Part shown: piece by piece, positions 16,758-48,180 of the stretch | How the letters are laid out: each line of letters starts with the position of its first letter | Numbering within the stretch: position 1 is the first letter of the stretch | Source of the DNA: Ceratodon purpureus | Lineage: Eukaryota > Streptophyta > Bryopsida > Pseudoditrichales > Ditrichaceae | Assembly: GCA_014871385.1 (NCBI GenBank) | Contig: CM026423.1 | Coordinates: 24,188,906 to 24,252,905 of the forward strand | DNA length: 64,000 nucleotides | Direction: 5' to 3' | Made by a program: the position numbers and the translations under genes | Notes under the pieces: generated by a model | Databases searched by the model: none | Told to the model about the DNA's origin: nothing | The model's input: the letters and a program-made list of their open reading frames with translations, nothing else

Positions 16758-16816
<59 letters not shown>

Positions 16817-23080: not shown

Positions 23081-23580
<500 letters not shown>

Positions 23581-23739
23581 GGATCAGGGTGAGGATCAGG
23601 GTCAGGTCTGAAATGGAGGTAATAATAAGGTTGATTACGGGTTTGGCGGAGGTTTAAAGCGCGAGTGCTTTCGGGTATCATGCTGACATTAGAAGTTAGT
23701 TATTGAAAAGTACGTAATTGCCAAGCAATCTATGTTAGG

Positions 23740-25618: not shown

Positions 25619-28600
25619 TCACTCCGGATCAACTAAAATGCTATGAGAAACAACTTCGGCTTCAATATCCACAAAGTTTATGACTCGACCATTGTATTTT
25701 CTACGCGTAAATTTCTTCAATGTGGGAGACTCCACATTAGCTTGAAATTGAGCCCCTAGCTCGGCATACTCTGGAAGCCGTTGCATATCAGGTGATAGTG
25801 CAATCTTCTTGATGCACTCGTTAATTATCCCCCCGGAACGCGGACTTAGCGGTCTGCAACCTCAACCGTATCAAAAAACAGATTCATTTTTAACAAAAAA
25901 CCATGTCATTTCAAAATGTCACATTTAGAAAATGTTCATTGAAATACTCACTTACTCGTCGTCGCTTTCCTCAGTCATTATGGCGATGAATTTGTTCACC
26001 GGCTTAGGGGTGGCCAGCACTTCTTTTTCGATCATCGGCTTCATCGGTACATGAGATGAATCCGCCTTCGGAAGAGGCAGTGGCGGCAGAGCCAACTTCT
26101 TAAGGACTTCTGTATACAGCTCGGGATCATCCTCAAGCGCAACTATGTTCCGTCCTGACTGCCGGCATGCTTTGATTGATGCACCTGATACAATTGAGTG
26201 CCTCTTTGTTAGATTTTAGTAGTTTCAAATTCCAAAAAAAAGGCCTTGTTCAAAGTTACCTCGCATGTGCAAAAACGACGAGACTTACCCGTTCCGGCGC
26301 CGATATCGACGACGACGTCACCAGGGTCGGTGGTGGCTCTGATTAAGCTCTCGGTGAACAGCACGTCTTTCTCCCTCGCTCCTCGCCATGGCACCTCCTT
26401 GCGCATCGTCTGTTGCTCCAGCGTAACCCAATTTAGGATGACATCACGGTCAACGATGTCGATGCTCTTTTTCTTGTAATCCTCGGGTGTCGGTCTGAAG
26501 TCAAAGCTGTTATTCGAGGATAATGTAAGAAGTTGCACCTTAAAGAAGCATGTTGTCATGCCGCTTATTTTCGCGGAGCGAAGAAGCAATCTATTGATGC
26601 CTGTCCACGACCTCTCAGACTTCAATTCAACCACTTGATGAAAATCACGAATCTCGTCCTCAATTTCGCCATTGTCATCCGGATGGATAATGATCACACA
26701 CCCCTGGTCTTGGAGAACGAGTTTAACAAAGCCAAAGACGGCTGCAAGGTAATTGTCGCCTCTACTGTTCCAATCTGGAATCTCGTCCTCATCGGATATA
26801 CCAGGGACCGGTAGACCCTCCGGAATATCAATGATAATGAGATCTGCCAATCCACCCCCCCGAACACTCTTCCCGTCCTTCATCCGGACCCGTTGAGGGG
26901 TGACGCTCCGAATCCACTGGACCATATCGTTGAAAGCCTTTGGCATGCTTTTCAACCTCATTCTAGGATTTGCCTTCTGCCACTCAGTTATTGATTCATT
27001 CAGAATCAACTCATGAACAGGGCATCTTGCTTGACGTGCGCTGACGTCTGGCTTCTCAGCATGTCCAACCCTTGGAGAGGATGTCCCATTCTCCGCACCA
27101 TACGGCTCAACAGTCGCTGGGTCCGACTTCTTCCCCCTGCTCCTCTTCTTCACTGGTTCCTGGTGGGACTCCTTCGATGCCGACTTCGCTCCCCTCTTCC
27201 GTTTCTTTGTGTTCGCATCCCCGGCACCAGTGGATGTCGAAACACCTTGTGTATCCTGTTCTGGCTCTGCATCATGAGCAGGAAGTGCTTCATCTGAAAT
27301 ATCATGGGTGTCGTCTTCCCCATCTTTCCTCTTGGTAAACATCTCCCTTATAGCCTTCTCCTCAGCAGTTACAAATGACTTTGGGCACTCGATATACCAG
27401 CAGCACTCAATCAGATGGTTCAAATTGAACATCTTCCGCTGGTTGGTTGTGAAGATGAACTCGGAATTCGATGTCTCCGTCCAGCTGAACCACGGAGGTG
27501 GTATACTCTTTACTACACCAGCTGGGATGAGCTCCCGCTTAAAGTACTGATACAGACATCGCTTCCAAGCCATGTCGGTCCCTGGTTGGGAATTGAATGG
27601 TTGCGACTTCGAATACACATTAGCTCCAGTGAAGAACGACAAGTATGCCTTCTCCCATAGAAGCACACGCCACTTCTCGATGTACTCGGCCATAGGAGTG
27701 CGCTTGGAGTTAATGTCTTCCTCTGCATCGGAACTAGTTGCCAACCAGTTGAGGCACTCTTTCTCGACTTCGTCTTCCAACTGATACAAAACAATCAACT
27801 TAAGAGTGAGACACAAATAACTAAAGAGGACGCCATCGGCTATAACCTCGAATCAGTGTAACAACCCAGAGTTCTAGAGATAATGAAATACACTTACGTT
27901 TGCCCAAAATGCAGCTTTTGTAATCCAGGGGTTGAGCACTTCAATTGAGCAAGGTGCTGGTGGAAACTTCAATGTTTTCCTTGAACTCGCCGACCCGTTC
28001 CACCACCTCAGCCATTTCGCTTTTGTTTTGGCCGACACCTCAGATGTTGCAATTGCTTGGAGCTTGTCGATGGTCATCTCAACCTTGGTTTGGTGCCGAT
28101 CATAATGTCTTTTGATCTGAAAATCAACAGCATCCCAAGTAATCAGACTAGTGAAGATTAGAATCCGAGAGACATCATTGCATCGAATATCAAATTTCCT
28201 CATAACAGAGCATTGACTATCTATGTAAAATCATCATTTTCTTTCATAGAAAGTGTGTTAGATCACCGCTAAAGGGTCCAACAGCTGATCTGTCATACGA
28301 ATGCAACACAGTACCATGTAAAGAATACGATATAGATTTCATCTATCGGATGAGACGGATGATTTATCAATGCCAAGTTTCCGAGGTACCTTGGGGTATT
28401 CGACACATAAAAATCATGTCTTGGATTTCAGAGAATATTTCTTGAGTCATATAGTCCACAATACCTAGGTAGGTGAACACAAAATAATTCTCTGTCGGAT
28501 TTTAGAGATGATTTTTGATCGCCAACTTGACAAGGTACCTTGCGGAAGTCGACACATCAATATCGTCTGTCGGATTTTTGAGATTATTTCATGTCTCTAA

Positions 28601-31600
28601 GTTTCCAAGGTATCTAGGTAGATTGACACAAATAAACCATCTGTCATAGGTTTCAGATTGTTTACGATATCTAATCTCCTGACGTACCTTGAGGAATTGG
28701 CCACATTGAATTCAACTGTCTAATTTCAGAGATTATTTCTACTGTCTTACTTCCCACAGTACCAAGGTAATTTGACACAATCAAAACCATCTGTCGGATG
28801 TCAGAGCTAATCTAAATTCTCCAACTTGACAGAGTACCCTACGGTAATCGACACATTAAAATCATCTGACGCATTTTAGAGATTATTTCTTCGGACAAAC
28901 ATTCCAGAGTACCCAGGTAAATGGAAACAATAAAATCATCTGTCGGATTTCTAGACTGGTTTGCTATCACCAACTTGACAAGGTACCTTGAGATGATTGA
29001 CACTCGAAAATCATCTGTCGGATTCCAGAGATAATTTCTTGCGACAAGTTTCCCAGAGTACCTAGGTAAATGGACACAGAAAAACCATCTGTCGGATTCT
29101 AAAGATGATTTCTCGACTCAAACATTCCAGGGTACTTAGGTATTTTTCGCATTTTGAGGCACATTTTCCTTAAAATTATTAAAAAAACACATCATAGAGC
29201 AAATAATTGATCCAAATCATCAAAATGTATGTAAAATCTCTGTGGTACCTTGCTACCATGAGTGTTATAAATCGATCTGTCGGATTTTTTAGAAAATTTC
29301 CGCGAGCTCATTGGGCACATCCCCTCGGACTTTGAACGTCCGAAATTTTTCATAAAAATCCGACAGATCATTTTCGCGAGCTCAATGGGCACATCCCCTC
29401 GGAAATTGAACATCCAAGATTTCTCATAAAAATCCGACTGATCATTTCTACAAACTTAATGGGCACATCCCCTCGGAATTTGAACGTCCGAAATTTCTCA
29501 TAAAAATCCGACAGATCATTTTTGCGAGCTCAATGGGCACATCCCCTCGGAAACTGAACATCCAAAATTTCTCACGAAAATCCGACAGATCATTTCTACG
29601 AACTTAATGGGCACATCCCCTCGGAAATTGAACGTCCGAAATTTCTAATATAAATCCGACAGATCATTTTTAAGGAGCTCAATGGGCACATCCCCTCGGA
29701 AATTGAACATCCAAAATTTCTCATAAAAATCCGACAGATCATTTCTACGAACTTAATGGGCACATCCCCTCGGAAATTGAACGTCCAAAATTTCTCATAT
29801 AAATCCGACAGATCATTTCTAAGGAGCTCAATGGGCACATCGCCATGGAAATTATACATCCTAAATTTCTAATAAAAATTTGACAGACCATTTCTATGAA
29901 CTTAATAGGCACATCCCCTCGGAATATGAACGTCCGAAATTTCTCATAAAAATCCGACAGATCATTTCTGCGAGCTCAATGGGCACATCCCCTCGGAAAT
30001 TTAACATCCAAAATTTCTCATAAAAATCCGACAGTTCATTTCTACGAACTTAATGGGCACATCCCCTTGGAAATTATACATCCAAAATCTCGCATAAAAA
30101 CCCGACAGATCATTTCTACGAACTTAATGGGCACATCCCCTCGGAATCCGAACGTCCAAAGATTTAAAGAATAATCCGACAGACCATTTTTGAGATTAAT
30201 TTCCACTCATCACCTCGAATTTTAACGTCCTATATTCAAAGAATAACCCAATTGATCAACTCCAAAGTATTTACCTCGTTCTGAAATCCCTTGCCATGGA
30301 CTGGATTCGCAACAGCTTGCTCTCTGTTGAACTTTGTTTGCAGCCTATCCTTGGCTTCCTTCACGGCCTTGTCCACAGCTGCCCTCATCTCGTGCCCTGA
30401 ATCATCACCAGGGTGCTCGTTGATCCAAATTTGAGAAGCCTCCTCTGCGACTTGGGCCAATGTTGCCTGTTTCAGTCCACGTGCCATTAACATCTCGGGA
30501 CTTGAATCATCCAATTACGAATTGACAGCACTGATTTCTTATAACACTTACGCTGTGTAAAAACGTCACAAATACTTCTTGAGGCATCGAGTGCCAGGAC
30601 TTCTTAGTTGAACTCTTCGTGCGCGCCAGAAGATCCGGCGTTAGAATTCCACTCCTTTCCAGCTCCTCCACAGACATTTGCCCGTACGTCTGAATCTTGT
30701 GTAGAGTGTGCGGCAGCCTTTCTTTGACGTAAGCATCCTCATTGGCCCTGTGTCAAATACAACACACACTTTTTTAAAATCAAAGATTCTAAATTTCTAT
30801 GTCATTATATCCAATATCAACATCCGGAGAAAAGATAATACTCTTGCACAGTTTAAGACTCACTTGTTGATGGCATGCATTGCTGTCACTAGAGCTTCAC
30901 GGCTTCCCTTCACATCGAGCAGAATGCAGTCCGGCCTTCCGTTTGCTTTAGCCCATTCAAGATCATCTGGGTATTCCACTTCGATGAACTCCCGCCATGC
31001 CCTTGTGCGGTGGTTACCATCAAAGACATAAAACATCTTTCCTGTAAGATCTTTTGTCTCCCTGTGCTGCCTGATCTCATCCTCGAACGCAGCGTTCAAC
31101 ACCTTCCAAGCATTACACCATCCTGACTTCATCTCCTCGGTGACACTTGCGACGTCCCCCATGTGCGATGTATCTGCAACATAAAATGCCCCAGACCCGG
31201 GTCTTATGCCGTTGAAGAACTCAGCTTGCAACTTCTGTACATCACTCTGCATTGCTGGACGCACGAAATCACATGGGATTAACCGGCATAAGGGAATTTT
31301 GATCATTGAATATTGGTGAGGTCTGCGGCGCATTTTGAGTAATGCAGCGTATGGGTCCGGTTTCAACTCCTCCCTGAATTGACGGAATGCTTGCCGAACA
31401 TTCACAGGCTTTCGAGGAGGTTCAATCTCTTCCACCTGCCCACCAAGGCTCAACAGAGTATTAGCGCCGGCTTCGCCATCACCAACTTGGGTCTGATCCT
31501 CGGTCTGATCGTCATCCTCCTTGCTGTCCTTGTCCTTGCTGGGTTCTTGCTGAAACCAGTCCTCCTCCGGCTGCTCACGCGAGCCATCCTCCTGCTGCTC

Positions 31601-33182
31601 ACGCGAGCCGTCCTCCTGCTGCTCACGCGAGCCCTCCTCCTGCTGCTCGCTCGAGAACCCCGCCTTGCCCACTTCATCATCTCCTTCGAGCAAGGAGCCC
31701 ATAAAGTTTACTTTTGGAGGGGCCCTGCCATTACGGATGGGAGGTTGCGAACTACCCATATCCTCGTCCATGAAGGAACCTCTCGGAATATCGTCTATCA
31801 CGCTCTTCACTGCCTCTGAAGCCGCGTCTACCATATCGTGGGAAGTGCTCATCGCGCCCTGCAAGGTAGAGGCACGTTACATGCAAGTCAATAGAAGGCC
31901 GCATTTCAGAGCACAACAAATACACCCAAATGCGAAGCATAACATCATAAACCCTAGAAAGTCACAAAAACCCTAAGCAACACTTACAGATGTAATGCGT
32001 ATTATACGGCAATCCGTCACTAGTTGTAGTGCACTCCCAATGATTAAAGCCTTGAAAAAATGCCGCTCTTGACACCCACAAACCCTTCTCGGCCACAATA
32101 ATTTAGACCTCGTACTATCCACCTAAACCTTGCAACGGCAACCCAAATGGAGATGTGCTCTGAAGCCGCCCCTCTCAGACCCTCTCAAAACCTTTACTTA
32201 CACCATTTCAGCATACCCTCAACCTACCAAAGAACCTCATTCCAAACCCCCTCCATGCATCTATGACCTCCAACACCACAACCCTCAGCAGACTGAAGAG
32301 CCAGGCTCCCCGTCTGTCAATTTATGCGTGCTCACTCCCTTGCCTCGAGTGGCTTCTAAGTCACACTTCTTGCTCACTCCCTTGCCACGATTAGCTTCTA
32401 AGCCACACTTCCTGCTCGCGGCGGCCCCCACTCTACCCTAACCGCGACAACCATCACTTTCTACAGCTAACTACAATGATGACCGCACCAACTTCCTACG
32501 CAAAGATAAGTATGACAATGACTGTGATGCATGCCAAGAACCTTCAAACTTTTAAAACCCTCATAAGCCATTAGTACACATCGCGGCCGGCTTCAACCCG
32601 GTTGGGTGATGACTACAACCACTCCCTCCTCTACGCCCAACGTACCATGAAAATTCCGACGGCAAACTATTAAACCATAAAACATTTATCATGACGATCA
32701 CACCACTCACTATTCTGATGCCGCAAACCAGTCCTACGAGTACTTGATCCCGACCTGGCACTGGCTAGCGAAAATCTCGCTGATCAATCATTATGCTACA
32801 GCTGCGTCTAGAACGTACCAAGACATCGTGCTGGCAAGCTTACATCAGAATGTCGCGGCTGAAGAATGGAACTGGCGTGTAGATCGCTGAACACCCTCCT
32901 TGAGACGGCCACCGTCATTTGCCCGTCGACGAAGTGATTGCTACTAACTTTCGTGGCCGATCCTCCAGTGTTGACGCTCGGACACCCTTCAGTCTTGGAT
33001 CTCGAGTCCCTGAGAATCGAGCTTACTGAACGAACAACCTTGCTTTGACTCTTGCTCTGACTCTGATACTTCCTGTCCGTCAAGCTCAACCCCGTCTTAC
33101 TCTTTCTGCGCTTCTTCCCTGATCTCTCCTGGGTTTCTTCACTGGGGGAGCCTAACCCCCCACTCCGATGTGACTTGGGCAT
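25619..33182 (-). CDS. Gene A: ParB-like domain fused to a DNA methyltransferase-like domain
   Basis: Exons on the minus strand (my splicing): 33182-33027, 31858-30864, 30747-30552, about 30493-30275, 28116-27898, 27780-26289, 26184-25956 and 25853-25619. All junctions are GT-AG and in phase, and I see no internal stop. Exon 1 (MPKSHRSGG, basic, nuclear-signal-like) is the least certain; translation could instead start at ATG 31852. Exon 2 has Glu/Gln/Ser repeats and then a ParB/sulfiredoxin-like core, IPLCRLIP...FDGNHRTRAWREF. A middle domain (WLRWWNGSASS, NPWITKAAFWAN, YFKRELIPAG) is shared with gene B. The C-terminal domain is methyltransferase-like in permuted order: a motif-IV-like LADLIIIDIPEGLP, then VPWRGAREK, then a SAM-site-like VVVDIGAGTG continuing ASIKACRQSGRNIVALEDD. 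DIPE stands where DPPY or SPPY is expected. Inferred role: DNA binding and modification for the transposon. Confidence 0.75.
28290..29150. repeat. Degenerate tandem repeat in a gene A intron, ATCTGTCGGATT-containing
   Basis: Units of roughly 90 bases containing ATCATCTGTCGGATTT, AGATTATTTCT, TTCCAGAGTACCTAGGTA and TTGACAAGGTACCTTG-type segments, alternating between two variants. They lie in the intron between exons 30275 and 28116 of gene A, next to the 74-bp satellite. Confidence 0.65.
29295..30200. repeat. Satellite of 74-75-bp units in a gene A intron
   Basis: The word GGGCACATCCCCTCGG recurs near 29312, 29387, 29461, 29535, 29609, 29684, 29758, 29833, 29907, 29981, 30055 and 30129, giving twelve units of 74-75 bases. 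Most of the array alternates between GAGCTCAATGGGC and GAACTTAATGGGC versions, so the higher-order unit is a dimer of about 149 bases. Each unit also has AAATCCGACAGATCATTT, the reverse complement of the word in the neighbouring array. Confidence 0.85.
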
Positions 33183-33624
33183 CTGTGACGGTGAACGTAA
33201 AACTTACTTCAAAGACAAAACCGGCTCATACTCTTATCAGATCCTTGATGCATTGAGAGAGAAATGAACCTCAACCGTGCTATGTTGAAAATGACTAAGG
33301 CCAATGTGTGATGCACTTAGGCTAAATGTCCCCCACCGAGCTCTGAGTTCGCCTATTAATTGAGGTTCCATAGGGCGTCATAGGCTTTGCCATGACGGTT
33401 TCTTCTCATAGACGATTTATTTTTGAATCTGTCAGTCATTAATGCTGATTGTGTGCCCAAAATAAAAGCTGTTCAACTATATTCTGGGACATGATACTGG
33501 TCTTGAACCACGCTGCAATGGTGAACTATCACGTACTTGGTTACAAAACTCTTAAACCACCCAATGCAACAGCCTTCCTGCTTCACTTCGGCTCTTCCAC
33601 TCTGTGCACATCATACCCGTAGAC
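33028..33624. promoter_or_regulatory. Divergent intergenic region, gene A / MULE2
   Basis: About 440 bases separate the proposed ATG codons of gene A (33182, minus) and MULE2 (33625, plus). The same head-to-head arrangement separates MULE1 and gene B, so a shared bidirectional promoter is likely. No clear TATA box could be fixed by eye. Confidence 0.4.
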
Positions 33625-36600
33625 ATGGCTCGTATACGTGCTGAAGGTCACGATGTTCCATTCTGTGTCCCATGTAATTCGGAGGGTGTAGGGTCGATTA
33701 CCGCTAGCTTGTTGAGCGTGAGATACAACCTTGTTCTTGAGTCCGTCCATCTCGAGGAAGAAATTGTCAACGACGACGGCGAATTGATTCAAACTGTATA
33801 TCAGATGCCGATTAGAGCTAAGGATGGTAGGGAGTGGCTTCTTGAGGCCAGAAGATATGTCGTGAGGGGACTCACTGCGGATCGTAGGGCTGCATCCACT
33901 GAGATATTAACACCGGGCCGATCCATGACATCGACTGTCGATGTTGGAACCGAGCCAAATCCTCCTGTGAAACAACCCGTAGCTTGACAACGCATTCATG
34001 TCCTAAGTGAGTCAGATATGGATGATTTCGTTACGCCGTCCCAAGCCCAGCCTAGTTCTTCGCAGAAACCAGTATCGGGTAGCTTCAGTGTCATCCCCGG
34101 CCTTATGCGTCTTTTTTCCAAACCCGGAGCGAGGAATGCTTTGTCGAGGTTGGACTTTAGAGCACTTCAGAGGGATCGGGTGCCATTTCTACCGACCGAG
34201 TTTAACGGGGACGTGCTCTTCGAGCTTCCACCAATCCCTGATCGCGGCACAGCGAGCGCAAAGTCGATGGCAGGGATGGATAAGAAGTACGACGCACATC
34301 CATGGTGCAAGACCATGACGACCAACATCACAAACGACCAAGGACTGACTTTCAGATATTCTGTATGTGCAGGTCATCTGAAATGCCAGAACGAGAAGTG
34401 CGACTTCTTGCTTCGAGGAGACAAACGCAAGATGGAGGTGAACGAGTCTGAGTGGGACGGTGTCACGCTTACCCCGTTTGTCGTTGGTTGTGATCCTCCT
34501 CCGAAGTCCACACTTGTATGCAAAATCTGCAGATATCCCCCGGAATGCATCGCCACGTGCCCTGCAAGGATGTACTACGTGCTCGGGAATCCTGCGATGT
34601 CACGTGCGTGTATCCATATCGGTACACATAACCACCCTGTTGGATACGTTGAGTGCAGGGACACCAAGCAGAAGGTTCTCGACCTACTCGAGTTGCATAT
34701 GCAGAACACTCCGTACGCCAAGACATCGGCCCTAGCTCTAGAGGCGAGTAAGGATTTTCTGAGTGAGTACCTCCTAACTGCACCGGGGGAGAAGCGGACC
34801 ATTCTTTCGGACGAAGAGTTGGATGAGGTGTTCAAGAAGTATTATACACTCAGCAAGCCCGGGCTTAAGAACGCCGTGACGACCTTCAGGGGGATCGGTA
34901 ACCTGGGCATTATCGACGGCATCGCTGCCTTGCGGGGCTGCAGCAAGTGGGAGTTTATTCACGACATACATTTCCCGGTCAGGGTTCCGAAGGGGACAAG
35001 GTTTTTATCTTTAAGATGTCCGAGAAAGGTCCCGGGTCGGGAGTGGACCTTGTAAAGCGAATGCAACCTGGAGGGGATCTCCAGGATTCCTGGATTATGT
35101 TTGATCACGTCAAGCGCACAAAGGGTTGGACAACCATGGCATGTCATGTCTATGACTCTCAGTATTGCCGGGTCATGACTATCGCCATTTGTGATATGCA
35201 GTCAGAAGACGTGAAGGCCCAGACCGTGATGTGGCAGTTCCTGAACGGAATTATGGCAAAACATGGCTATCACGAAGTCAACTTCAAGGGCTTCATGGCG
35301 GACAGCGCCCAGGCCAACTGGAACTGTGTGCGGAAGATCTATGGAAGTGGCGACGCGACGGTTCCAATGCCAGACCGTGAGCGTACGTGCCAGTTTCATT
35401 GGGCAACCTCACTTAGGAAGCACACTGAGGCTCACATCATCGGATCAGATTTACAGAGGCAGCATTACGTGCTTTGCAAGCAGTATCATGATGCAAAGAA
35501 CATGGAAGAAGCCGACATTCGTTTCCACGCGATCCGAGCATGGTGGACCTCCTCAGGCGCTACTACTGCCTCCGGTCTTCGTGACCTCGAACTTTGGCTC
35601 GTATTTTGGCACTTTAGATATCGGCAGTGGGGAGGCTTCATGCAATTGGTGAGTACAACATCTCTTTTTTTATCCAGTCACTTAATACACTTATTTGACG
35701 TAGAATTGCTTGAATCAGCAATTTCTTTGATTGCAGGACCTTACAGACGCCGAGAAGGACGAGATGCCCTCTTGCAACCTCTCGGAGACTGTGCACAATA
35801 TATGGCTTCAGATGTCGGGCAATCGTGGCGACAACATCTACTTTGCCACGGTGGACGATTATGTCAGGGGCTTCATGCAATGCACTAACTATAGCGCCTA
35901 CCTGCGAGGTGAGACCCCGGGTAAGGGACCTTGCAAAGCCGAACTCCGTTTACGGCGAGCTCAAAATCAGGGATTCCCAAGCGCCTTGCCGATGCCACTG
36001 AACACTTCCATGACGCTCCACAATTGCTCTCCCGTGAGCCACATCGCGAAGGCGAGGAGCTCTTTGGGTCCACGAAACGGAAGCTAAATCAACCGATCGG
36101 ATCCGAATATGACTCCCACAGGCCGGACAAGGTAAATTTTTCTCAACCTCGTCTGAGCACTAGGAATACTCGAGCACGCAAGGAGCCTGATCCTGAACCA
36201 GAGGATTCACCTCCACAAAGGGTCCAAGCGGCACCCCCATCGCCAGTCTCAAGCCCGGACGAGAACAGGAGTCGTCATCACGTAACCGCTGTGGAGGAGA
36301 CGGATGTGGACGAGAGTATGTGGCACCTTGTCAGGCTTCCAAAGGGATCGGCGAAGGCGTGTTTTGCTCAACAGGCGAGGACGAATAAGAAGTGCACGGC
36401 GAGGCTCATACGGGGAAAGAAGGCTACAATTGTGCCATGCTACTGGGGCATCTTCACCGACGTCAGGAAGGATCAGCAAAAATGGATGCAGTTCTGCTTC
36501 TGTAACGACGACATCCAGAGATGCGTCATGGGTACTAAGCGGAACTGGGTCTCCAGCATGCCCCCCTCCCCCGCTTATCTGGCCTGTCAAGCGTGGCTCT

Positions 36601-37248
36601 CGCCTTTCAAAGAGGGAGATACTTGACCTCGAGGCAGCCGGTTTCAGACTCCCTCAACGCCAAGAATTACCCGCATCACCAAGTTTTTCACGACGGTGCA
36701 TCTCTCCCACAGCGGCCGCGGTTTGACCTCTCGCAGTGGAGTGTACCCCCAGCTCCAGGAATATATCCCACGGTGCGAGGAGGATTCAAGATTCGGCGTT
36801 GTAACCGGGTGCCACGAACAGAGCACGAGAACAACTGGGCCTCATCTACTCTACTCACCATTCGAATCCATCAGTCACACTCATACCTAACCCAGGTTTC
36901 GGGTGCATCATCAGCGTTGTCTCTGAGACCGTATCGGAGTCTAATGTCTACAAAATAACAATTGGGCCGGAGCCCGCCTGCACCTGCCCCAACTTCAAGG
37001 AAATGTCCAGCAAGTCGCTGGGAAAACGACCTCCCTGGGTGCCTTGCAAGCATCTCTATTACATCTTCAATGCTATATGCAACCTTGATATTCACCAGGA
37101 CTCCTACATCCATGCTCCAGCCTCAGCTTTAACGAGGTCAAGGCTATTTTTCAGAGTGGCCTTCTTTCGCTTATCAATGTCTAGGTTTGCTTCTGATGTG
37201 TCTTTTTCCCCTACCTTCATCCTAGGGCGCTCGGTACGAACTCGGTGA
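33625..37248 (+). pseudogene. MULE2: Mutator-like transposase with SWIM finger, broken
   Basis: The ATG at 33625 begins an N-terminal domain shared with MULE1 (ending AASTEILTPGRS). The frame has a TGA at 33985-33987, continues open through a hydrophobic-acidic HVLSESDMDD patch, a Cys/His-rich FLYWCH-like region (CQNEKCDF, CKICRYPPECIATCPA, HIGTHNHPV) and DGIAALRG, then loses one base near 34990-35000. It resumes as KVFIFKMSEKGPGSG, VYDSQYCRVMTIAICDMQSED, the MULE core FKGFMADSAQANWN, DRERTCQFHW and FWHFRYRQWGGFM. A GT-AG intron (about 35648-35735) follows, then CNLSETVHNIWLQ. A SWIM zinc finger, CTCPNF...CKHLYYIF, lies near 36990-37070. The transposase is recognisable over its full length but cannot be translated whole from this copy. 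Confidence 0.75.
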
Positions 37249-38301
37249 CATTTTTATTCCTATTACGTCACAGATTAAAGCGGTGGCAAAACTGCTCGTA
37301 TTCATGTCGGATATTCAGATCATGTGTTGGCATGGGCATCGTTTAGTATACGGTTCAATCCAGACGTTTTTGTATATTTGTATTTATTTCTATAAATATT
37401 CAAAGTTTTCCCACAAATTGATCTACTTTATGCGCCAACGATTGTAAAATTTCTTATTATCAATGGTACCCATCACAGCGAAGACATAGAATGCACATGC
37501 TCTCACTTCTCTGCTATCTAACTGTTGCATCCATCCAAACGCCGTCGCAATTCTTCATCCCCAATAACGTTGTCGTCATGGCATAATGAAGAATTCTGAT
37601 ATTGGGCCGGGTCCCCCTCATCACGGCCCCTTCCAAACCCGGCTGACAGGTTTTTTTGAGTCCACTTCGTTCCCCTCCCGCGGCACGGTACCTTGCCTCA
37701 GGTCCGTCCCCGAAATCATCTGACGGATCCGGCACTACGTTCTGGTCCGAACCAAAACCACGGGTGGCGCCCTTCCAGCACTTCAGAGAACTACCCTACG
37801 GGTAACAAAATGACATCTCAGTAATTTAAGTCCGGTAAAATTCATGTTGATCTCCCGGATGACACATATTGCAGGGATCCTACTGCCGGATTTTTTGGCA
37901 GGTATATATCCCGTTATATAATCATCCCGTTTGCTCCATTAAGAGAGATATATGTATTGTATGCTAAATGATGATTAGATAATGTTTTGGAGGTCATCGA
38001 AAGCACGCTTTCCTCATAACCAGAGTTCAAAAAATCTTGGTTAACTCACTTTGAATCCTGCCAGAATGCCGCCAGAATTCGTGAGAGTACGATACACCTC
38101 AACGATAAAGCTGTATTCAATTCCAATGTTTCTTCCTGATTCCGGCCTCTGTGATTGCTTGTGGGATGATCTCTATATATGAGGTTAGTGGAGATCGCAT
38201 AATTCATTCTCAGCTGAAGCCTCAGCAATGGACCTCGCGATGAAACCAATCTATTTTAGCCTAGGCCGTAAATCGCGAATTATGTTAGACACCAGCTCCT
38301 G
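37249..38301. other. Spacer after MULE2
   Basis: AT-rich to about 37480, then a GC-richer part (37590-37760) that includes ATCATCTGACGGATCCGGC, the same word found in the 83-bp elements. Short frames only, none recognisable. Confidence 0.35.
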
Positions 38302-38893
38302 ATGGATCCGCAGATCGGGGATATTGTATTTCGCAAACCCTCCGCCCAGGCCAAGATTGGAGTTCTCACTCTACAGTGCGCTGAGGATTGGTCTCAGAAT
38401 TTTAAGACGTGGCTTTTGAAGGTGTTTACCTGCAGTGTGGTCTTTGATGATCAATTTCTCCATTCCGTTGACGCTCCAAGATGATGAGGTGCATCATGCT
38501 TTTTGTCTGGGTACCTGGCCAAGGCTTTCAGGAAGCACCTTCCGGAGGAATCATGACACCTCATATTCCTCCGAGTGAGTCCACAACCTCTCATCGACTG
38601 AGTCAGGTGAGGTTCTTCCCGGACGGCAACAGCGTGACGTTGTGTTTTGCGCAGCCCTCCCCACCCGACCCAGTCACGTTTCTGAGAGTCGATTTCTGGC
38701 GGGACACGTACCGCCAGGAAGCGTATTCGGGGCTGTAGGTTTTAACGTTGTTGACAACCCTTCCACGCAGTGCCCTACGCTGCGCATGATTTCTCTATGG
38801 AAACGAAATGGCGAAAGATGGATTTGTGATAGTTCTGTGATAGGTCCAAGTCTGCAGTCTGTATCGGAGGTGGCGAAGGAAGTTCCCGTTTGA
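38302..38893 (+). CDS. Possible small gene, frames uncertain
   Basis: The ATG at 38302 opens a 60-codon frame (MDPQIGDIVFRKPSAQAKIG) that stops at 38484. Overlapping frames at 38481-38738 and 38642-38893 look coding-like (FFPDGNSVTLCFAQPSPPDPVTFLRV). A real product would need splicing or frame changes, for example at GTGAGTCC near 38574. I recognise no family. It may be a decayed cargo gene. Confidence 0.25.
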
Positions 38894-39720
38894 CATCTAT
38901 GTTGACAGCATCGTGATATAGTCGTTGTTTTGTAACAGGGTATAGTCGTTGTACTGCTTTTAACTTGCTCCCTTAATACATATGTATCACTTTGATATCA
39001 GTCTACCTTTGCCAAGCTTACATTTGCACATTGTTTGAACCACTACACTTTAATTCTTGAACCAAATTAACAGCAGACTGTGCATCATCAAGCCCCGTTT
39101 CACAAACCAAGTGTCTGTGTATGTTGAGTTCTTTGTCACTAAACTGTCCCACAAACTATTTTCATTTCCTATCTCACTATAATCCAGGTACCACCGGCTC
39201 AGATGATGTAGTAGTCCGGCCGTCGGAGTCCCATGACACTCGGTCGTCCTTCCCTTCACCCTACTATTAGTACCGCACCCTACCATTCTCCTGTATGTGG
39301 CTGACGGATTCTTCAGTAAGTTTAGTCTTGCCAACAATATCGAGGGTGCCCACCGTTCAGGACTAACATTGGAATTGTAGAATTACGTCACGGTAACTTA
39401 TGGTTTCATAATTAATATAAAAGTTCATAACGCCGGCCGCCCTTTGCACTACGTCCTTGTTACGGATCTTAATTGTACCCAGAATGGAGGTGAAACATCA
39501 CATTAGATCGAGTAAAATTGAAATGCCAAATTGAAATATTTTTCGCCCCCCATGTCATTCTTTATTGTACCCAGATTGGTTAAGATACATGATAACGACA
39601 TTTAGATTCCTAGGCTCGGACGATGCTACGGCTGCAACCACTAATGCAGTTTACACTTAAATATTTTGTTAGCCTTACTACTGCTCAACGGCAATACTAT
39701 CTTCTCCATCAACAGAAAAG
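38894..39720. other. Spacer, no recognised gene
   Basis: Moderately AT-rich; short frames only (for example 39050-39337 minus) without recognisable content. Confidence 0.35.
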
Positions 39721-39721
39721 T

Positions 39722-40250
39722 CTAGCCTCTCCCATCCTTGGTGTTCTTCAGATTGATTGCAGTATCAGTCGCCGATATGGTTGGCGTTGTTGGTCTCTCT
39801 AAATGCTTGGGCAATTGCGATACGTACATCTTTCCGTCCCCAACGGCACCAGCATATGGATTGGCCGCGCATCTCAACGTCCTTGTCACGATCGGTCTCA
39901 TCATCTTTGGCTTCCAACGGACTTGCGATCCTTGGAATGTTCCTCAAACCGCGAAGCTGAGAATATGGGCCTGCTCTTGGAGGAATCAAGTTCTCCATGT
40001 TTTCCGCTTTGTCGATCACAGCCACTTCCCTTCCAGACTGAATCGAATAGTCACCTAGGTTTGAGAGGATATCAATTACTTCGCACTCTTCCGCACTCGG
40101 AACCCAAACTTCACAGTCCTCTTTCACCATCCCCATGCCGCTAATCACTTGCGCACATCTGAGGTACCTCAACATTCTATGGTCGCCCAAGAGCGTCTGT
40201 CGGATTTTACAGTCTTTCCGCTGCCAATATTCGGGGGCGGTACCTCGCAA
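39722..40250 (-). CDS. Hypothetical protein at the right end of the element
   Basis: Minus-strand frame 40250-39765 with YWQRKDCKIRQTLLGDHRML at the N-terminus and an acidic, charged middle (EECEVIDILSNLGDY, DDETDRDKDVEM). Overlapping frame 39904-39722 (ATDTAINLKNTKDG) may be a further exon. The start lies only about 80 bases inside the TIR-homologous block, so the 5' part may be missing or use the TIR as promoter. No known family. Confidence 0.35.
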
Positions 40251-40280
40251 TTTCCACGGTTATTGCCACACATGCTCGAC

Positions 40281-40432
40281 AAATTTCCACGGCCATGGGT
40301 CCCCGTGCGTTTTTTGCACACGAAAATATTGGCCCCGGTGCGGTTTTTGTCTGCTCACTTTTGACCCCCGGTGCGATTTTTGGCTGCTCACCGCTCACTG
40401 CTCACTGCTCGCCGCTGCCACAGTAGCATCGC
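40281..40432 (-). repeat. Right terminal inverted repeat
   Basis: Reading inward on the minus strand, TGTGGCAGCGGCGAGCAG starts at 40422, and 90 bases to 40333 match the left end with two mismatches. After a 28-base extra segment, AACGCACGGGGACCC and CCGTGGAAATTT resume the similarity to about 40281. Confidence 0.85.
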
Positions 40433-40445
40433 TGGCGTCGTACAC
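40433..40445. repeat. Target-site duplication, right copy
   Basis: TGGCGTCGTACAC, identical to 8726-8738. It runs directly into ATGGCACGCCAT, which encodes the MULE1 residues upstream of VYDA on the minus strand. Confidence 0.8.
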
Positions 40446-42115
40446 ATGGCACGCCATCGTCCACCAGTCTTTGATGCGTTTCACATGGTCAAACATGATC
40501 CAGGCGTTCTCCAAATCTCCACCAGCTTGCATTCGGCTGACCAAGTCGACACCACTTCCCGGCCCGACCTCCGACATCTTGAAGACGAAGACTTTGTCAC
40601 GCATAGCTCTCTAAACAGGAAACCTATTCTCCTGGACATACGCCCAGAGACTGTTTCCACGGAGCTTGGTGATACCGTCCATGATTCTGTACCTTCTGAT
40701 TTTTTTGAAGGTGGCCACTTTGTTGCGGATGTTTGGTGACGCCATGTCTTTGCATCGATCCAGAATAGGAACCAGCTCCTCCATCGTCAGCTTCCTCGGT
40801 GGTGCATCCTCGGGCTGTAGCAGATAGCTCCCGATGAGGAGTTTGCTCGCCTCCAGGACAACGGCGCTCTTTGTTGCTTTGTTGTTCATCTCTACCTGCT
40901 CTTCTATTAAGCTACTAATCTCTGCTTTAGAGTCTCTGTAGTCTCCAACTTTCACTGGATGATCATGTGTTCCTATGTGAATACAAGCTCTAGTCTGATT
41001 TGCTTTGCCCACAACGTAATAAATCTTAGCCTCGCATGTAGCTACACATGATGGAGGTTCTTTACATACCTTGCACACTAGCGTGGAATCAGATGGAGGC
41101 GGCTCATCCATGAGAAAAGCTTGGAGGGTACATCCTTCAAACTCAGTCTCATTAACCTTAAAGATCTTGGGAACACGCTTCAGGAAGTCACACTCCTTGT
41201 TACTGCAGCACAGCCATCCGACGCAGGTGGAACTTTGAAAAGAGAGTCCGAAGTCGTTTTTGATGTTTGTTGTGATGGTCTTGGTCCACAAGTGTCCGTC
41301 GTATCGTTTGTCCATTCCCTGCATTGACTTGGCGGCGAGCTTAGAGGATCCTGCAGCAGCTGGGGGCAGCTCAAAAAGAACCGGACCATCAAACTTCGCA
41401 TGCAAGTACTCTACTATCTCGTGTCTAATAGTGGAATAGTCTATGTTCTTCAAAATGTTTTTGACCCTCGGGCCTTTGCAAGCTGTTGAAGGAGCGGAAC
41501 AATGCTAACTGTGACCTGGGACAATGGAAGAGACACATTGGAAGGAGGAGCATCAGCGTGGATCTTAGGCACCAACTTGACGGGACTGTCTTCGTCATCA
41601 GAGGAGAGAGATATGACGGATGGAGGAGGAGGTTTCTCTACATCTGAAGTCTCGGTACCAGGCTCGACTTTGACCTTGACATCACGAGGTAAGGGAGTCT
41701 GAATTGTGCAAGTAGAAGAGCGACGGGGGGTGAGGATCTCTGTGGATGCAGCCATCAGAGAATCAGTAAGACCATAGACTCTACAGGAGCCAGGGAAAAG
41801 TCTCCACTGCAACATATTGTTCTCATCTCTCATTAGAAGTTGCCCGAGGGTGTGGGTAACTTGGGCAGTAACGTCATCGAAAATCTCCTCCTCTATACTG
41901 ATGGTATCCTTACGGAAATGGAATCTGAGACTCAAGCGAAGAGAGGAAACTGTAGCTAGACCATCGTCATCTACGCGAAAGCTAAGAGGGATTCCCATGC
42001 CTTGGGCATACAGACAAACCATCCCCATGTTCGCAGGCAACTCAAGGAAGAAGGTAGAAGAGTGAGTGTACTGGCGAAGCAATATTGCGAGAGCAAAGTG
42101 AGAGGAATGATGCAT
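40433..42115 (-). pseudogene. MULE1 transposase, N-terminal half
   Basis: Minus-strand continuation of the transposase whose C-terminal half is at 7094-8738. The frame 42115-41450 (possible true start at ATG 42028) ends in a hydrophobic-acidic patch PSVISLSSDDEDSP. A shift near 41465 leads to frame 41453-40611, with Cys/His motifs CCSNKECDF, CKVCKEPPSCVATCEA and HIGTHDHPV and then DGITKLRG. A TAG at 40613-40611 interrupts, and the frame resumes as MRDKVFVFKMSEVGPGSG up to MACHVYDA, where the 31.7-kb element begins. It parallels MULE2 residue by residue. It is divergent from gene B (start 42653). Confidence 0.8.
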
Positions 42116-42652
42116 CGCTGTTGATCATTATATTCGGGTTGGAATGTCCATGTGGACGACTAGTTAATGATTCATTCTGTTACGTAACAAATGTATGATT
42201 TAAGAGGGACGGCGCTAACTAATTAGAATGCAATTTTTTGCTGGCCGAAGTATATCAGGTAAGATATTTATAACTCTACTTTAATAATTTGAATCATGGC
42301 ACTGATTCTATTTGTTATGATGTATTATAAGATTAGAATGAGCCGTCTTTTAAATTCTACATTTAAAACAATGAATATAAAAAGAAGCATGCATTGAAGT
42401 GCTTGATACAAATCTTTTATTTTTAGTGTGCTTGGATTTCTTCTATATATTTAAAGGTTGATATTTTGAACTTTACTTTACAATAGAATTGTTATTGATA
42501 CTCTTAATATGAAGAGGGTATAAAATGTGTCTGTTGTTAAGATGCTATATCAACTTAGGGTTGTATTAAAATAGTTGTACGTTATAGGTATTTAAGCGGG
42601 GAGGAAGTTCTCCAGGGAGCCTTTTTGTGAGAGAGTCCGTCATTTGGTAAGA
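42116..42652. promoter_or_regulatory. Divergent intergenic region, MULE1 / gene B
   Basis: About 540 AT-rich bases between the MULE1 start (42115 or 42028, minus) and the gene B start (42653, plus). It is equivalent in position to 33183-33624 between gene A and MULE2. No gene inside. Confidence 0.4.
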
Positions 42653-43659
42653 CACATGAAGCAGAGTGGAGGGCCATCTCCCTCCACTTATGTCACTCCT
42701 AAACCTAGAAGAAAACGAGGTGGTACAGATTTTACGGATAGAAGAGCGAGGAAGAGGAGAGAGTCACGTAAGAAGGTAGAATTTAAACGTGACCATTTGA
42801 GTGCTCCCGTGAAAAGGAGAGGAGCAGGTTTGCCTGTAGCTTTATAGTTCTGTAGCATTTGTAAATTCATTCTAGATACTATTGTGGAGGGGGAGGAAGA
42901 GTTTTTAGATAATACCGTCGTCCAGAATCACGAGCAGGAACAGGAGGTACTCTTAAGTGGAGTTGATCTTGAGGCCATGACGGAAGAATTAGTTTTTAAT
43001 TGTAGTCAAAAAGTAGAGTCACCGCAGCCGTCTATCAGATTCTATGACTCTTTGACAGGGGAGCCGGATTCTCAATTAAGCCCACGTCTCAACTCCGATG
43101 AGGTAATTATTATTATACCATCTTGACTGCTGTGGATCCGTTTTATTAATTTAGTATTATAAAGAGACGATTCTTTACTTAACAAAATTTTACTTGTATT
43201 ATGCAACAAGCAGAAGAGTCTACATTAACTCACTCAGGTTCCTCAGAATTCACACATCTAAATTTGGAATGTATTTGTAGAGTAACCGAAGGATAAGAGA
43301 AGACGATGATGCAAGTGGAGACCCAGTTGGTCATGAGGGTAGCGAACTGGACCATATGCGTTTGATTGCAAGGCGAGCGAGGTGCGATATTTTCAGAGCA
43401 AGGGAAGGAGGCAAGACAATGTCTGCAGCACTCGAGGAGATGAGAGGAAAGGAAGAAGAGCAAATTGGCGCAGAGGTTGTGGGGCAGGCTCCAGTCGATA
43501 TGGCCACGGACGAGCAAGGAGGTGGAGAGGAACAGCCCGAGCTGGCTGGGGATGCGAGTGAGGACCAGGAGAGAACGGACAGGGATTTTGGAGAGGAAGA
43601 TCCCGAGGATGGAGACCAGGTACGAGGCCATGAGCTTGTGAGGAGGTAGAGAGATTCCC

Positions 43660-46600
43660 ACGTGTTTGAATGATGAGGATATTGAATGGGTTTACTCGAA
43701 AGTACGGATTTGGAGAAATGATTTGTACTTTGTGATAATCATAGTCTGATGTGGGTTGTGTGTCAGTATTGGATTGTGTGGGCTTTCGGTTGTGGGCTGC
43801 GGGGTTTTTGTGGGGTTGGGGGATTCGGGTTCGTTGGTGATGGGGGATGCTGATTTATTGAGAATGCGGGTTGTTTGCGGGTTGGTTTGGGTTTTTGGGT
43901 TCGTTATTTTCTACTGGGTTGTGGGTCGTCGTTCATGGATTGTGGGTTCTGGAAAGTGACTGATGCTGCTTGCGAACTTGCGAGCTCTTTGGGAATTGCG
44001 TGGGTGGGATACCCTGGATAGCAGCCTGGTCGAAGGCGGCGCCTTCAGCGATCTCTCTATAGCTGCCCGGCTCGATTCAGGCGTTTACGGACGTTTAGGA
44101 ATAGTCCTAGTCTTAGTCCAGTTTATAGTAGTCCTAGTCCCGTGGGTACGAGATGATCATGTTGGCCTTCACCTTGTATGGCAAGATCTCGATGAGTTCT
44201 AGCATGGGTTGTGTTTCTTGGTTCTGCTGTGGTCGTTGTGTCTTTTAGGTATTGGGTTGTTGGTGGGGATGGTGCTTGAGTCTGGTCGGAACTGGCTAGG
44301 ATTCGAAAGATGAAGGGCAGTAGAAGTTGTCGCTGATAACCTCAGCCTAGTAGCATCAGAGAGTCACAATTGCAACACTTGATATGAGCTTGGATCATAT
44401 GATCGGAACTGTCGAGTATAACAACTATTGAGCGTGATCGGGTGCTGCTTATTTTGTACAGAATAATATTGTGATCCCCCTTGTAAATATTGGGTGCCGC
44501 GGTGGTGGCATTCCCCCAGGCCTACTGTCGTCAACGACAGTAGGCTGGGAGGAGAGGAAAGCTTGCGGAGCAATGTCCTCATTTTCTCACGTTAAAGTAA
44601 ATGTTTTGAGATTGTATCTCCTTCGCTAGCGTTGTTGTGATATAGGTTTCTGCAACTAATCTCTGGCATTTTGATTGAGTTCTCTTTAGGAGTTTTGAGA
44701 TCAAGATAAGCTGAGTTGCAGCGTGATTGCATGATGTTGAGAATTTAAGGATTGTGAGAATTTAAGGGTTCTTGGGAGCAATGTATTGAGTCATTGCTCA
44801 ATTATACTCGGAATGTGTTGGTGCGAACATAAGGAATGTGTTGGTGCAATACTTAGCATTTTGATTCAGCCGTGGACTAAGTGTTACTGTGAACAGTCAC
44901 ATTCTTGGAAGTCGTAAAGTTATGAGCAACTATGTTATTTCTGGTCGGGACCTGAGTTTGGAGGTTTTGAACTGATGTTTGGGAGATCCGTCTTGCTCGG
45001 TATTCCAGCTGAATGATTGAGGATCAGTCACAGCTATTGTGGGTGTGTGATTTTTTTATTTTAATTTTAAGTTTCTATACCCTTAAGCCTACTGTCGTCA
45101 ACGACAGTAGGCTGGGAGGAGAGTCTAGCTTGCGGGGCGAGGATGCTAGGAGAGTTGGGTGGAGGTCGACCACGGTTGATTTATACTAGCTGAATTTGAG
45201 GGAGCCGAATAAACGTGCACGATGTCGACGAACTTGTGAGTTGGGGTTGGGGAGTCGATGATAGGTTGAATTCTGCTCTAGACAATTGTGTTGTTCAGAT
45301 GCACCTTGAATATGTGTCGATCCTGCAAGCGGGTTGTCTGCATGTTGATCTGCATGTTGATCATGCATGATTTCACATTGGTTTCGGTATTCACGCAATT
45401 AGCATCATGTTAGGTTCCTTTTAGATTGAGATATATGAGCTCGATTACCGAAGTATCATTGATAGTTGGAGTGGAAGCTTCCAATTTAAGGAACAACTTC
45501 GGTTTTCAATACTTGTGTGCCTCCGAGATGGAAGCCTGTGTGGCGCTCTATTTTATTGATACGTTATTCACCAAAATTCACATTCAATTTGATGCCTCAA
45601 ATATGGACAGTAAGCAGTTTTAATTATGCATATAAATCTTTGCTTGCAGCAGAAAAGTATCTGAAATAAACGATCATTGAAGTTTAAGGTAGTTTCGGTT
45701 TAAGTCTAGGTTCAGGTTTAAGTCGTAGGCTCTGGGTTGAAGTCGTTGGTTTAAGTCGTAGGTTTACGTACTGGGCTCAAGTTTGCTTGATGGCACCGTG
45801 TCTATTTGTTTTTGGTTGTTTAGTAAGATGGCACCATGTGCTTATAATTATGAATATGAAAAAATATGAACCGTGAATATGAAAAAATAATGTGGTTATG
45901 AAATGTCACTGCATTGTTCGAATGTGATCTTAGAGTTTTGAAAGATGGAAGGCTGTGTGGTGGTGGCATGGTGCTTGGGATTTGTAAGCTTGTATTTTTT
46001 TTTTTAAATTTGTTTATTTGCCTGGGCCCAAGCCTACTGTCGTCAAGGACAGTAGGCTGGGAGCTGCATGCAGCTTACGGGGCAAAGTGAGGTAAGATCA
46101 GCATTTTGATCCCTTTCGTGAGTATTGGGTTCCGTTCCGGTGATATTGTGTAGACCTGTGTGCTCTTTCTTGGGGATCTGGGCCTTGGTTTTGGGGATTC
46201 CGGTTCTGCTGCTGCTGCTTAAGGTTCGGAAGCTTGCATTTTTTTTAAACTTTTTAATTTGCCGCAGCCCCAAGCCTACTGTCGTCAACGACAGTAGGCG
46301 GGGAGCTGCATGAAGCTTATGGGGCAAAGTGAAGGTAATCACCAATCCGCATTCCTTGGAGAAAGAATGGTTGCTTGATTAATTTTCTCCAGGTTAATGT
46401 GTGCTTTTTTTTTCAATTTTTTTAATTTCCATACCCCCAAGCCTACTGTCGGCAACGACAGTAGGCTGGGAGGAGAGACTAGCAAGCGGGGCGAGGATGT
46501 TGGGAGAGTTGGGTGGGGGTCGTCTTGGCACCCATCCTTACTTGAGTGCGCACTCCTTGGAGAAAAAATGGTTCCCTTGCTTCTTGCTTGTTGCTTGATT

Positions 46601-48180
46601 AATTGTTTCATTTTTAATGTGTGCTTTTTTTTTTTAAGTTTTATTAATTTGCCGCGGGCCCAAGCCTACTGTTGTCATCGACAGTAGGCTTGGACCTGCA
46701 AGCAGCATGTGGGGCAAAGAGAGGTGAGCGATAAACGACAAGCCTAGCAATCCCATAATGCACACTCTTAATGTCGTTTAATGATCCTTGGTCATAGGCA
46801 ATTCCTAGTTAAGAACAAACAGAGTGAACAAGGTAATTGTGGTGGAGTTAGAATGAACATCTATAATCCAGCATGAACATGTATGGAATTTGTCGTACAC
46901 GACCCCTGTGGGTATCTTGATGCTGAAGTCGTGATTTAGGCAATATATAGTACTATGCGAGCATTTAAAGTCCCGTCTGAGTTGTCGATATATGTAGTTG
47001 AATCATGAGCTAAGCATCTTAATTGATTGCTTAGCTTGCTCATTGCACGGGTTTTTTAACCAGCTCCTAATATTACAATGTAACCAAACTTCATATTGAG
47101 CATTTGCTTGCGAGTGAGTAGGGAAAATATGAAATTGTTAGTTCACAAAGTGGAGCATTATGCACTAATCGAATAGGCAATGGAAGGGTTTGGGGCGTAG
47201 ACCTCACATCTGAGCAGGGCTTGGTCTCGTTCGATCCTCATCAATTCTGAGGCACATTACTTCGATATCTCATGCGTTGACGAATTTGTCCTCCAAGTTA
47301 TCCGTTATGGAAGAACCTGAATGAGGAGGGTTGTGGTTACACCGCCTTTCCTTCAGTCCAGTGATGTAGTGATTAAAGATTTTATTGAAGCAGTTTGCAC
47401 AGTCCTGTCTGTTTCTCCCGTTACCTTAGATATGTATCAGAATCAAGAATCACCTTGTTTGATGGATTTGATTCTTACAAAGGATGTTAGAAATTAAGTT
47501 TCAAATATTCCTACTCAGAAGAAATTGTTGACTTGATTCCACTATGCCAATTGTCTAAAGGGATTGCTAGGCTTGTCTTTTAATGATCCTTGGTTTAAAA
47601 ATTTAATTTTTTCTTAAATTCAGCTTACTTCAAGCGGAGCCTTGTGATGGTTTGCTTCGATTTTAATTTGATTGGTTTAAGTTAAACTTCAGTCTTCTTG
47701 ATTTCTGTTCAAGCTGAAGTGGTTCACTACGATGAGGTTGTTGCGGGTACTCTCAAGTCCTAAGTCACCAAGGTCTTTGCCTTTCCTGGATTGTAGATTG
47801 CTGTGCACTGGTAGGAATTATGATCAATCATACTACCGATTGTGCTATTTTCTTAAATTTTTTTTAAATTGCCTCGGCCCCATGCCTACTGTCGCCAACG
47901 ACAGTAGGCATGGAGCTGCCACATGCTTCCGGGGCTGAGGCTCACCTCTCAGGGGTGGGCCGATGATGCCATTTGTTTTTATGAATAAAAAATAAAACCG
48001 TTTGCTGTGTGGGAGGCTCGCTCCTCCGGGGGCCTTGTGATGGTTCGTTTTGTTCTTAATTTAATTGGAATAATTGAAATTTAAGTCTCGGTTGCATGAC
48101 TGGTTTGGATTGCTTTTAATTTAATTGGTATAATTGATACTTAAGACTTGATGGTTTCTGTTTATTCTAATACTCATTAC
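43660..48180. other. Long gene B intron or unresolved region
   Basis: No exon of gene B could be placed between the donor after 43620 and the acceptor at 48196. Short frames at 43756, 43963 and 47732 lack recognisable content. The stretch holds seven copies of a hairpin repeat and is otherwise AT-rich. Confidence 0.4.
44518..47914 (+). repeat. Seven dispersed perfect hairpins, GCCTACTGTCG / CGACAGTAGGC
   Basis: Copies lie near 44518, 45085, 46029, 46271, 46439, 46660 and 47881, all in the same orientation. Each has an 11-base stem GCCTACTGTCG, a 4-base loop (TCAA in most) and the exact complement CGACAGTAGGC; changes in one arm are few. Most copies are preceded by a T/A-rich tract ending in GCCGCGGCCCCA-like sequence and followed by GGGAG and a GCTTGCGGGGC- or GCTTACGGGGC-type word, so the repeated unit is about 80-100 bases. 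Confidence 0.85.

Follow-up and report, generated by a model that had tools for sequence, protein, structure and literature searches.

A putative Mutator-like transposon of about 27 kb in the moss Ceratodon purpureus pairs a transposase gene with a divergent ParB-like/methyltransferase-family gene and carries CGACAG arrays in an intron

A 64,000-nucleotide stretch of the genome of the moss Ceratodon purpureus (contig C3, positions 24188906–24252905; assembly size 362.5 Mb, in 151 contigs; hereafter the window) contains two head-to-head gene pairs, each consisting of a transposase gene and a gene for a putative ParB-like/methyltransferase-family protein. In the first pair, gene A (minus strand) diverges from the transposase gene MULE2 (plus strand), and in the second, the transposase gene MULE1 (minus strand) diverges from gene B (plus strand). 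A preliminary description of the window had read the two pairs as paralogous, and translated comparisons (tblastx) bear this out: MULE2 and MULE1 match at 41% over 199 aa and 73% over 63 aa, and gene A and gene B match at 38% over 143 aa (31381–30953 versus 49038–49466), with further exons matching too. Pair A lies within a complete transposon, element A, whereas pair B represents a second, diverged family, element B, with the same divergent arrangement.

Element A (8738–40433; 31,696 bp, including a nested 4.06-kb insertion) is bounded by terminal inverted repeats (TIRs) of ~100 bp (left, 8738–8843, plus strand; right, 40330–40433, minus strand), whose 90-bp cores (8750–8839 and 40333–40422) are 97.8% identical in a self-comparison of the window. 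The ends are flanked on both sides by the 11-bp target-site duplication (TSD) GGCGTCGTACA (8727–8737 and 40434–40444). A second complete copy on C3 (L024, L025), ~27.4 kb long, ends in the same way on both sides and is flanked by a different TSD, GATGGAGGAGG, an 11-bp TSD thus being present in both of the complete copies examined. The window copy is longer because another element (13202–17265; 10-bp TSD TGAATGTATC), which the C3 copy lacks, is nested inside it. Since gene A and MULE2 lie between the same ends, pair A belongs to one transposon, with TIRs around the divergent pair as the preliminary description had anticipated. That description had also proposed a two-gene transposon core. The transposase and a DNA-modifying-type protein do travel together in one TIR-bounded element, but the element is ~27 kb long and holds several further open reading frames (ORFs) between the same ends, which rules out a two-gene element.

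Further copies were sampled with a 601-bp query from between gene A and MULE2, which gave 106 first-look candidates; the best 40, all that were scored, comprised the window and 39 others at 98–99% identity. Fifteen of these 39 were fetched, and all counts of element A copies below refer to these 15 unless stated otherwise. Their long alignments to the window, at 94–98% identity, run through both genes, so that a chance neighborhood of gene A and MULE2 is ruled out: the copies move as a unit. Both the ParB-like exon of gene A and transposase sequence are held by 14 of the 15 copies, the remaining one (L011) having lost 30258–32445. Gene A and the transposase gene are therefore co-mobile in element A. 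The low synonymous divergence (pS 0.014–0.032) indicates that the copies are young.

The transposase encoded by MULE2 is predicted to be ~1157 aa long and to have a SWIM-like C-terminus. Exon 1 (33625–35648, plus strand) has 161 homologues, 120 of them listed and 17 of those aligned, and its 675-aa frame is intact in 10 of the 15 copies, being truncated in L013 and L021 and interrupted by indels or stops in L009, L011, and L020. The 482-aa frame of exon 2 (35737–37182, plus strand), which carries the SWIM-like CxC...CxH motif, is intact in L017. Both exons are broken in the window, where the MULE2 frame is interrupted by a stop at codon 121 and shifted by indels; that its frame jump might be a family trait was rejected, as only the window copy has the shift and none of the 15 other copies aligned at this place shares it. 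Mutator-like elements (MULEs) are characterized by TSDs of 8–11 bp, long TIRs, and a transposase with a C-terminal SWIM zinc finger. The TSD size and long TIRs of element A fit this pattern, and the transposase C-terminus gave a weak match to PF04434 (SWIM; E=0.045, 13.7 bits versus a cut-off of 19.6), the whole exon giving none.

Spliced at canonical sites, gene A encodes a predicted protein of 1192 aa in seven exons running from 31852 to 25622 on the minus strand, with no stop in the window copy. The interval at which the preliminary description had placed the start of gene A (33027–33182, minus strand) is retained as a probable first exon—an ORF with a GT donor after 33027—and gene B contains a comparable exon, short and basic, but the main gene lies further along. 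It begins with the exon for the ParB-like domain (30864–31852; motifs IPLCR, VRP, and GNHR), for which 151 homologues were found, 120 listed, and 33 of those aligned. Exons defined by splice sites follow at 30552–30747, at 30275–30493 (with a homologous exon in gene B), and at 27898–28116 (50% identical to gene B at 50229–50420). The bulk of the methyltransferase domain, including a motif IV of DIPE, is encoded at 26289–27780, the remainder of its motif I region at 25956–26184, and the C-terminus at 25622–25853, the last two exons again being delimited by splice sites. The junction between exons 2 and 3 requires an unusual acceptor, whose AG is conserved in all 15 aligned sequences (14 copies and the window). 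Within the variable N-terminus, a 24-bp tandem repeat (31563–31655) gives rise to an acidic peptide repeat of the REQQEDGS type; VANC proteins are likewise described as having repeated peptide motifs in variable regions (PMC5735166).

By profile, the C-terminus of gene A is assigned to the N6/N4 amino-methyltransferase family: the spliced domain matches PF01555 (N6_N4_Mtase) at E=1e-7 (32.6 bits, cut-off 26.7), single exons giving no Pfam match. The corresponding domain of gene B is also listed as a PF01555 match in a search limited to E 10 that did not display its own E-value. Matches in the Protein Data Bank (PDB) include DpnA (E=2.4e-6) and CcrM (E=0.0011), and also MboIIA, RsrI, and dimethyladenosine transferases. 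The catalytic motif IV of N6/N4 amino-methyltransferases is (D/N/S)PP(Y/F/W); DIPE aligns with the DPPY of DpnA, at a negative score. The putative gene A protein may be a DNA methylator or, with DIPE in both families, a catalytically altered binder. Homologues were recovered with single-exon queries and none with the full-length protein; no prokaryotic or viral homologue was confirmed in viral and genome contig collections, which mainly reach close relatives.

The signature of ParB proteins consists of box I and the box II GxxR motif. Across 35 aligned sequences of the ParB-like exon, GNH is invariant, the following R is near-invariant, and so is IPLCR...VRP; both elements recall the ParB boxes I and II. 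The ParB label of the preliminary description was not confirmed by profile methods. Alignment of the family with 37 ParB sequences (reduced from 84) in hhalign gave a probability of 0.10%, the reversed control giving 0.06%, and a PDB search with the family returned no ParB chain. The most frequent PHROG match, "ParB-like partition protein," was obtained for 8 of the 35 members and was weak (best E=0.056). Because the profile tests failed, the domain is called ParB-like by motif only.

Both genes of element A are under purifying selection. Expressed as the ratio of nonsynonymous to synonymous differences (pN/pS), constraint on the transposase amounts to 0.20 for exon 1 (10 sequences) and 0.23 for exon 2 (12 sequences). 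In gene A, the ratio is 0.21 for the ParB-like exon (12 sequences), which is free of stops and indels in nine of the 15 copies as well as in the window, and 0.06 for the next exon (15 sequences). Values of 0.48 for the short exon 4 (four sequences) and 0.32 for the methyltransferase exon (five sequences, one with a stop; L111 was left out, the exon not being covered) complete the series. As a separate observation, the transposase homologue P0038 and the ParB homologue P0164 lie on contigs of equal size, 674,632 bp, the only size common to the listed contigs >20 kb (47 for the transposase and 23 for ParB); this would be slight evidence of linkage.

The genes of element B are decayed. The N-terminal part of its transposase gene, MULE1, lies at 40434–42115 (minus strand), as the preliminary description had placed it, but the gene breaks off at 40433 because element A sits in it, and it continues from 8737 to 7151 (minus strand). 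This further part matches residues 527–695 of the homologue P0030 at 95% identity and residues 2–309 of exon 2. When the flanks of element A are joined with one copy of the TSD, the MULE1 frame is restored and P0030 is matched across the join, from which it follows that the transposase gene of element B was the insertion target of element A. Stops are present in MULE1, and its last ~170 residues, to which the SWIM part belongs, were looked for left of 7151 without success. Likewise, the start assigned to gene B at 42653 holds as that of a probable first exon (42653–42816, plus strand; ORF), but the exons homologous to gene A lie ~6 kb downstream (48960–52500): the ParB-like exon at 48960–49547 (plus strand; homology) and the others, including the methyltransferase domain, at 49630–52500 (plus strand), with stops. 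A search for the ends of element B did not locate them.

A search with the gene B ParB-like exon gave 777 first-look candidates, the best 40 of which (one being the window) were scored and match at 92–100% identity; the MULE1 N-terminal exon gave 817, of which the best 40 places were taken. In the four next-best ParB-like exon places (L115–L118), 9.9 kb upstream of each was examined, and a divergent MULE1-like transposase was found ~3–4.5 kb from the ParB-like exon in three (L115, L116, and L118). In this small sample, gene A homologues thus do not mostly stand alone, which the preliminary description had named as an outcome that would refute its model. At L117, a tandem array of 42.3 copies of a 211-bp repeat (L117:980–9901) fills the sequence upstream of the ParB-like exon to the end of the stretch, so that a transposase further out would not be visible. 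With respect to genomic distribution, contig C6 (110.5 Mb, 30% of the genome) holds 26 of the 40 best B-type ParB-exon matches versus three of the 40 best A-type matches; 14 of the 40 best MULE1-type places lie on it, near its share of the genome.

A candidate recognition sequence is present in the introns of both accessory genes. In element A, the 2.16-kb intron of gene A contains two tandem arrays of a 74–75-bp repeat (28384–30189; Tandem Repeats Finder) with ATCCGACAGAT half-sites in opposite orientations. This 11-mer occurs exactly 14 times in the window versus 0.02 expected, always within element A, and 12 of the 14 sites are in that intron, within or between the two arrays. In element B, seven dispersed hairpin units of the form GCCTACTGTCG-N4-CGACAGTAGGC occupy the 5′ intron region of gene B (44516–47920, plus strand), and four pairs of their outer stem covary. 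The hexamer CGACAG is found 17 times in the array intron of gene A (0.47 expected) and 13 times in that of gene B (1.48 expected); of eight other regions, seven fall under expectation and one has 2 versus 1.54. The gene B intron at the position of the gene A array intron measures only ~86 bp, indicating that the arrays arose in different introns. The L117 repeat carries the same palindrome, some of its units change both palindrome arms together (CTATCGGCAGCGATAG), and L117 is the sole one of the four further loci with CGACAG far above chance (39 versus 1.5 expected). Array content also varies between near-identical copies of element A, with, for example, 5, 10, and 14 half-sites on one strand in L009, L010, and L017, respectively, although some other stretches cut the array.

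Palindromes like CTGTCG-N4-CGACAG also occur in element A outside the arrays, at 9938–9953 and 17581–17596 (one mismatch each) and at 25143–25158 and 40197–40212 (two mismatches each), the last being 221 bp from the right end. Two with at most one mismatch compare with 0.035 expected (0/200 shuffles), and four with at most two mismatches compare with 0.6 expected (four reached in 1/200 shuffles). The window has 15 two-mismatch sites in all, and two of them, at 57034 and 57561, lie outside the parts described here. CGACAG is not in the TIR sequences of element A, and no Rfam family matched at E≤1 across 28000–48500.

The closest anatomical match to element A among known systems is Sola1-1_Ec32 of Ectocarpus, and the closest functional model is VANC21. 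One report describes Sola1-1_Ec32 as 21.5 kb long with a gene for a 1104-aa ParB-like/N4-N6 methyltransferase opposite the transposase, and notes that transposons of brown, green, and red algae have ParB-methyltransferase genes so placed (PMC12477816). As far as that description goes, the likeness extends to an accessory protein of ~1100 aa, a ParB-like N-terminus, an N6/N4 amino-methyltransferase domain, and carriage on the strand opposite the transposase of a giant DNA transposon (21.5 kb there versus ~27 kb in element A). In contrast, the host element here is Mutator-like, has an 11-bp TSD, and resides in a moss; its ParB-like domain is unrecognized by Pfam and its motif IV is DIPE; and its intron motif arrays have no counterpart mentioned in the portion of the algal report available for this comparison by description.

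VANDAL21 is an element of the Mutator superfamily, and VANC proteins, to our knowledge, contain no methyltransferase domain. VANC21 is reported to bind a 9-bp motif arrayed in VANDAL21 noncoding DNA, including stretches upstream of VANA21 and within VANC21 and VANB21 introns, and to remove methylation, with array size varying between copies (PMC5735166). On that description, element A resembles VANDAL21 in having an accessory gene, short motif arrays in noncoding DNA including the introns of that gene, and variable array length. The motifs differ (YAGTATTAY versus the CGACAG palindrome), and anti-silencing has been demonstrated for VANC21, whereas gene A would act in this way only by analogy. 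Dinoflagellate and charophyte retrotransposons reported to have captured C5 DNA methyltransferases (PMC5890265) also encode a DNA methyltransferase, but that is a C5-cytosine enzyme in retrotransposons, unlike the N6/N4-type domain in a DNA transposon considered here. Within the parts of the open-licence literature covered, no report was found that places this partner class in an element of Mutator type or of a land plant, or that describes such intron motif arrays. The statement of the preliminary description, which knew of no Mutator family with this partner, therefore stands for Mutator-type and land-plant elements but not for the partner type, which is already described in algal transposons: the system class is known from algae, and the moss Mutator-like host and the candidate recognition site are new within the literature searched.

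We favor, with modest confidence, an explanation in which element A is an autonomous DNA transposon of ~27 kb with Mutator-like ends, young and moving by cut-and-paste, whose divergently encoded accessory protein would act against silencing through the intron arrays. Two conserved genes diverging from one intergenic region would be expressed together; the ParB-like/methyltransferase protein would bind the CGACAG arrays carried by copies of the family to which it belongs; and the bound protein could mark or shield these copies, most likely countering host silencing and keeping the transposase promoter active, in a manner resembling the action of VANC proteins on VANDAL motif arrays. A more specific version, offered only tentatively, is self-recognition, in which the protein reads the arrays in its own introns and marks or de-silences every copy of the family, making it either a second independent VANC-like device or the first transposon-borne N4/N6 marking in a land plant. 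A somewhat doubtful reading, by comparison, is that of an accessory protein with N4-cytosine or N6-adenine methyltransferase activity that marks its own element as self. The PF01555 match, and the same proposal made for algal ParB-methyltransferases (PMC12477816), speak for such an enzyme, but motif IV lacks the PP-aromatic signature in both sequences (gene A and gene B) and the PF01555 alignment of gene A begins only after motif IV. Unlikely, too, is a role in the transposition machinery, whereby the protein binds arrays and ends and helps to assemble or license a transpososome, or sets the time of excision by methylating the element. Such a role would fit a gene that diverges from the transposase gene, is conserved with it under similar constraint, and is accompanied by palindromes outside the intron arrays, one of them near the right end (40197), but the arrays are in introns rather than in the TIRs, which lack CGACAG.

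The arrays might also be unrelated tandem repeats that share a hexamer by chance and have no protein partner, a possibility that we do not favor but take seriously. Tandem repeats readily arise in introns, and six common bases are a weak link, two unrelated repeat units of this size being expected to share some 6-mer by chance; such a coincidence is harder to reconcile with arrays that occupy different introns of the same gene in the two families, with the 6-4-6 palindrome geometry, and with the paired arm changes at L117 and the four covarying stem pairs of element B. MULEs often carry cargo, and gene A could on that ground be a captured, Pack-MULE-like passenger with no role in the transposon life cycle, to which the exchange of modules at L115 would also be congenial; we regard this as very improbable given that two deeply diverged families share the pair, that differences between young copies bear the mark of purifying selection, and that first-look candidates number in the hundreds for both B genes (777 and 817). 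Several further results weigh against the favored explanation as well. Pfam MULE models match none of the 18 transposase alignment members at E≤1 and none of the trimmed segments at E≤10, so that the Mutator label of the preliminary description depends on the TSDs, TIRs, and weak SWIM match and not on these models; Pfam ParBc likewise matches none of the 35 ParB-like exon family members at E≤1. The pN/pS ratios are pooled pairwise values from non-independent pairs, and the palindrome tests were made post hoc with the motif already chosen. Motif content varies among the four further B-type loci, so that arrays are not constant there: CGACAG shows no excess at L116 (3 versus 3.8 expected; two palindromes) or L118 (4 versus 3.8; three palindromes), and L115 has 6 versus 3.7 expected, with six palindromes (≤2 mismatches) spaced 208–211 bp apart. 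L115 is, moreover, a mosaic, its ParB-like exon being 96% identical to gene B and its transposase DNA 70–72% identical to MULE1, which means that modules can be exchanged; the preliminary description had expected the divergence of the paired genes to agree, and it disagrees at this one of the three paired loci.

If the favored explanation is correct, the problem that VANC solves has a second solution in plants, namely a transposon protein that recognizes its own DNA through motif arrays, and prokaryote-type ParB/amino-methyltransferase proteins, noted so far in algal transposons, would be tied to a land plant and to a candidate binding site. That site makes binding, methylation, and anti-silencing directly testable, and element A offers a well-bounded, young family of ~27-kb DNA transposons with intact copies of the main exons of both genes.

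The other ORFs of element A are predicted to encode 121 aa (9039–9404, minus strand), 207 aa (10115–10738, plus strand), 146 aa with a Cys-rich N-terminus (11955–12395, minus strand), 343 aa (19249–20280, minus strand), 196 aa (21155–21745, minus strand), and 160 aa (23740–24222, plus strand). Those at 11955–12395 and 21155–21745, neither of which has a Pfam match, look paralogous by eye, sharing a Cys-rich start, a VMCVQGHGRS motif, and an acidic end. A long (GGGTGA)n satellite lies at 22985–23610. The nested element at 13202–17265 has short inverted ends (GGTTGTCATAATAGAC...) and is rich in GC-rich and T-rich tandem repeats, and its right end (17100–17268) matches many places in the genome at 93–99% identity.

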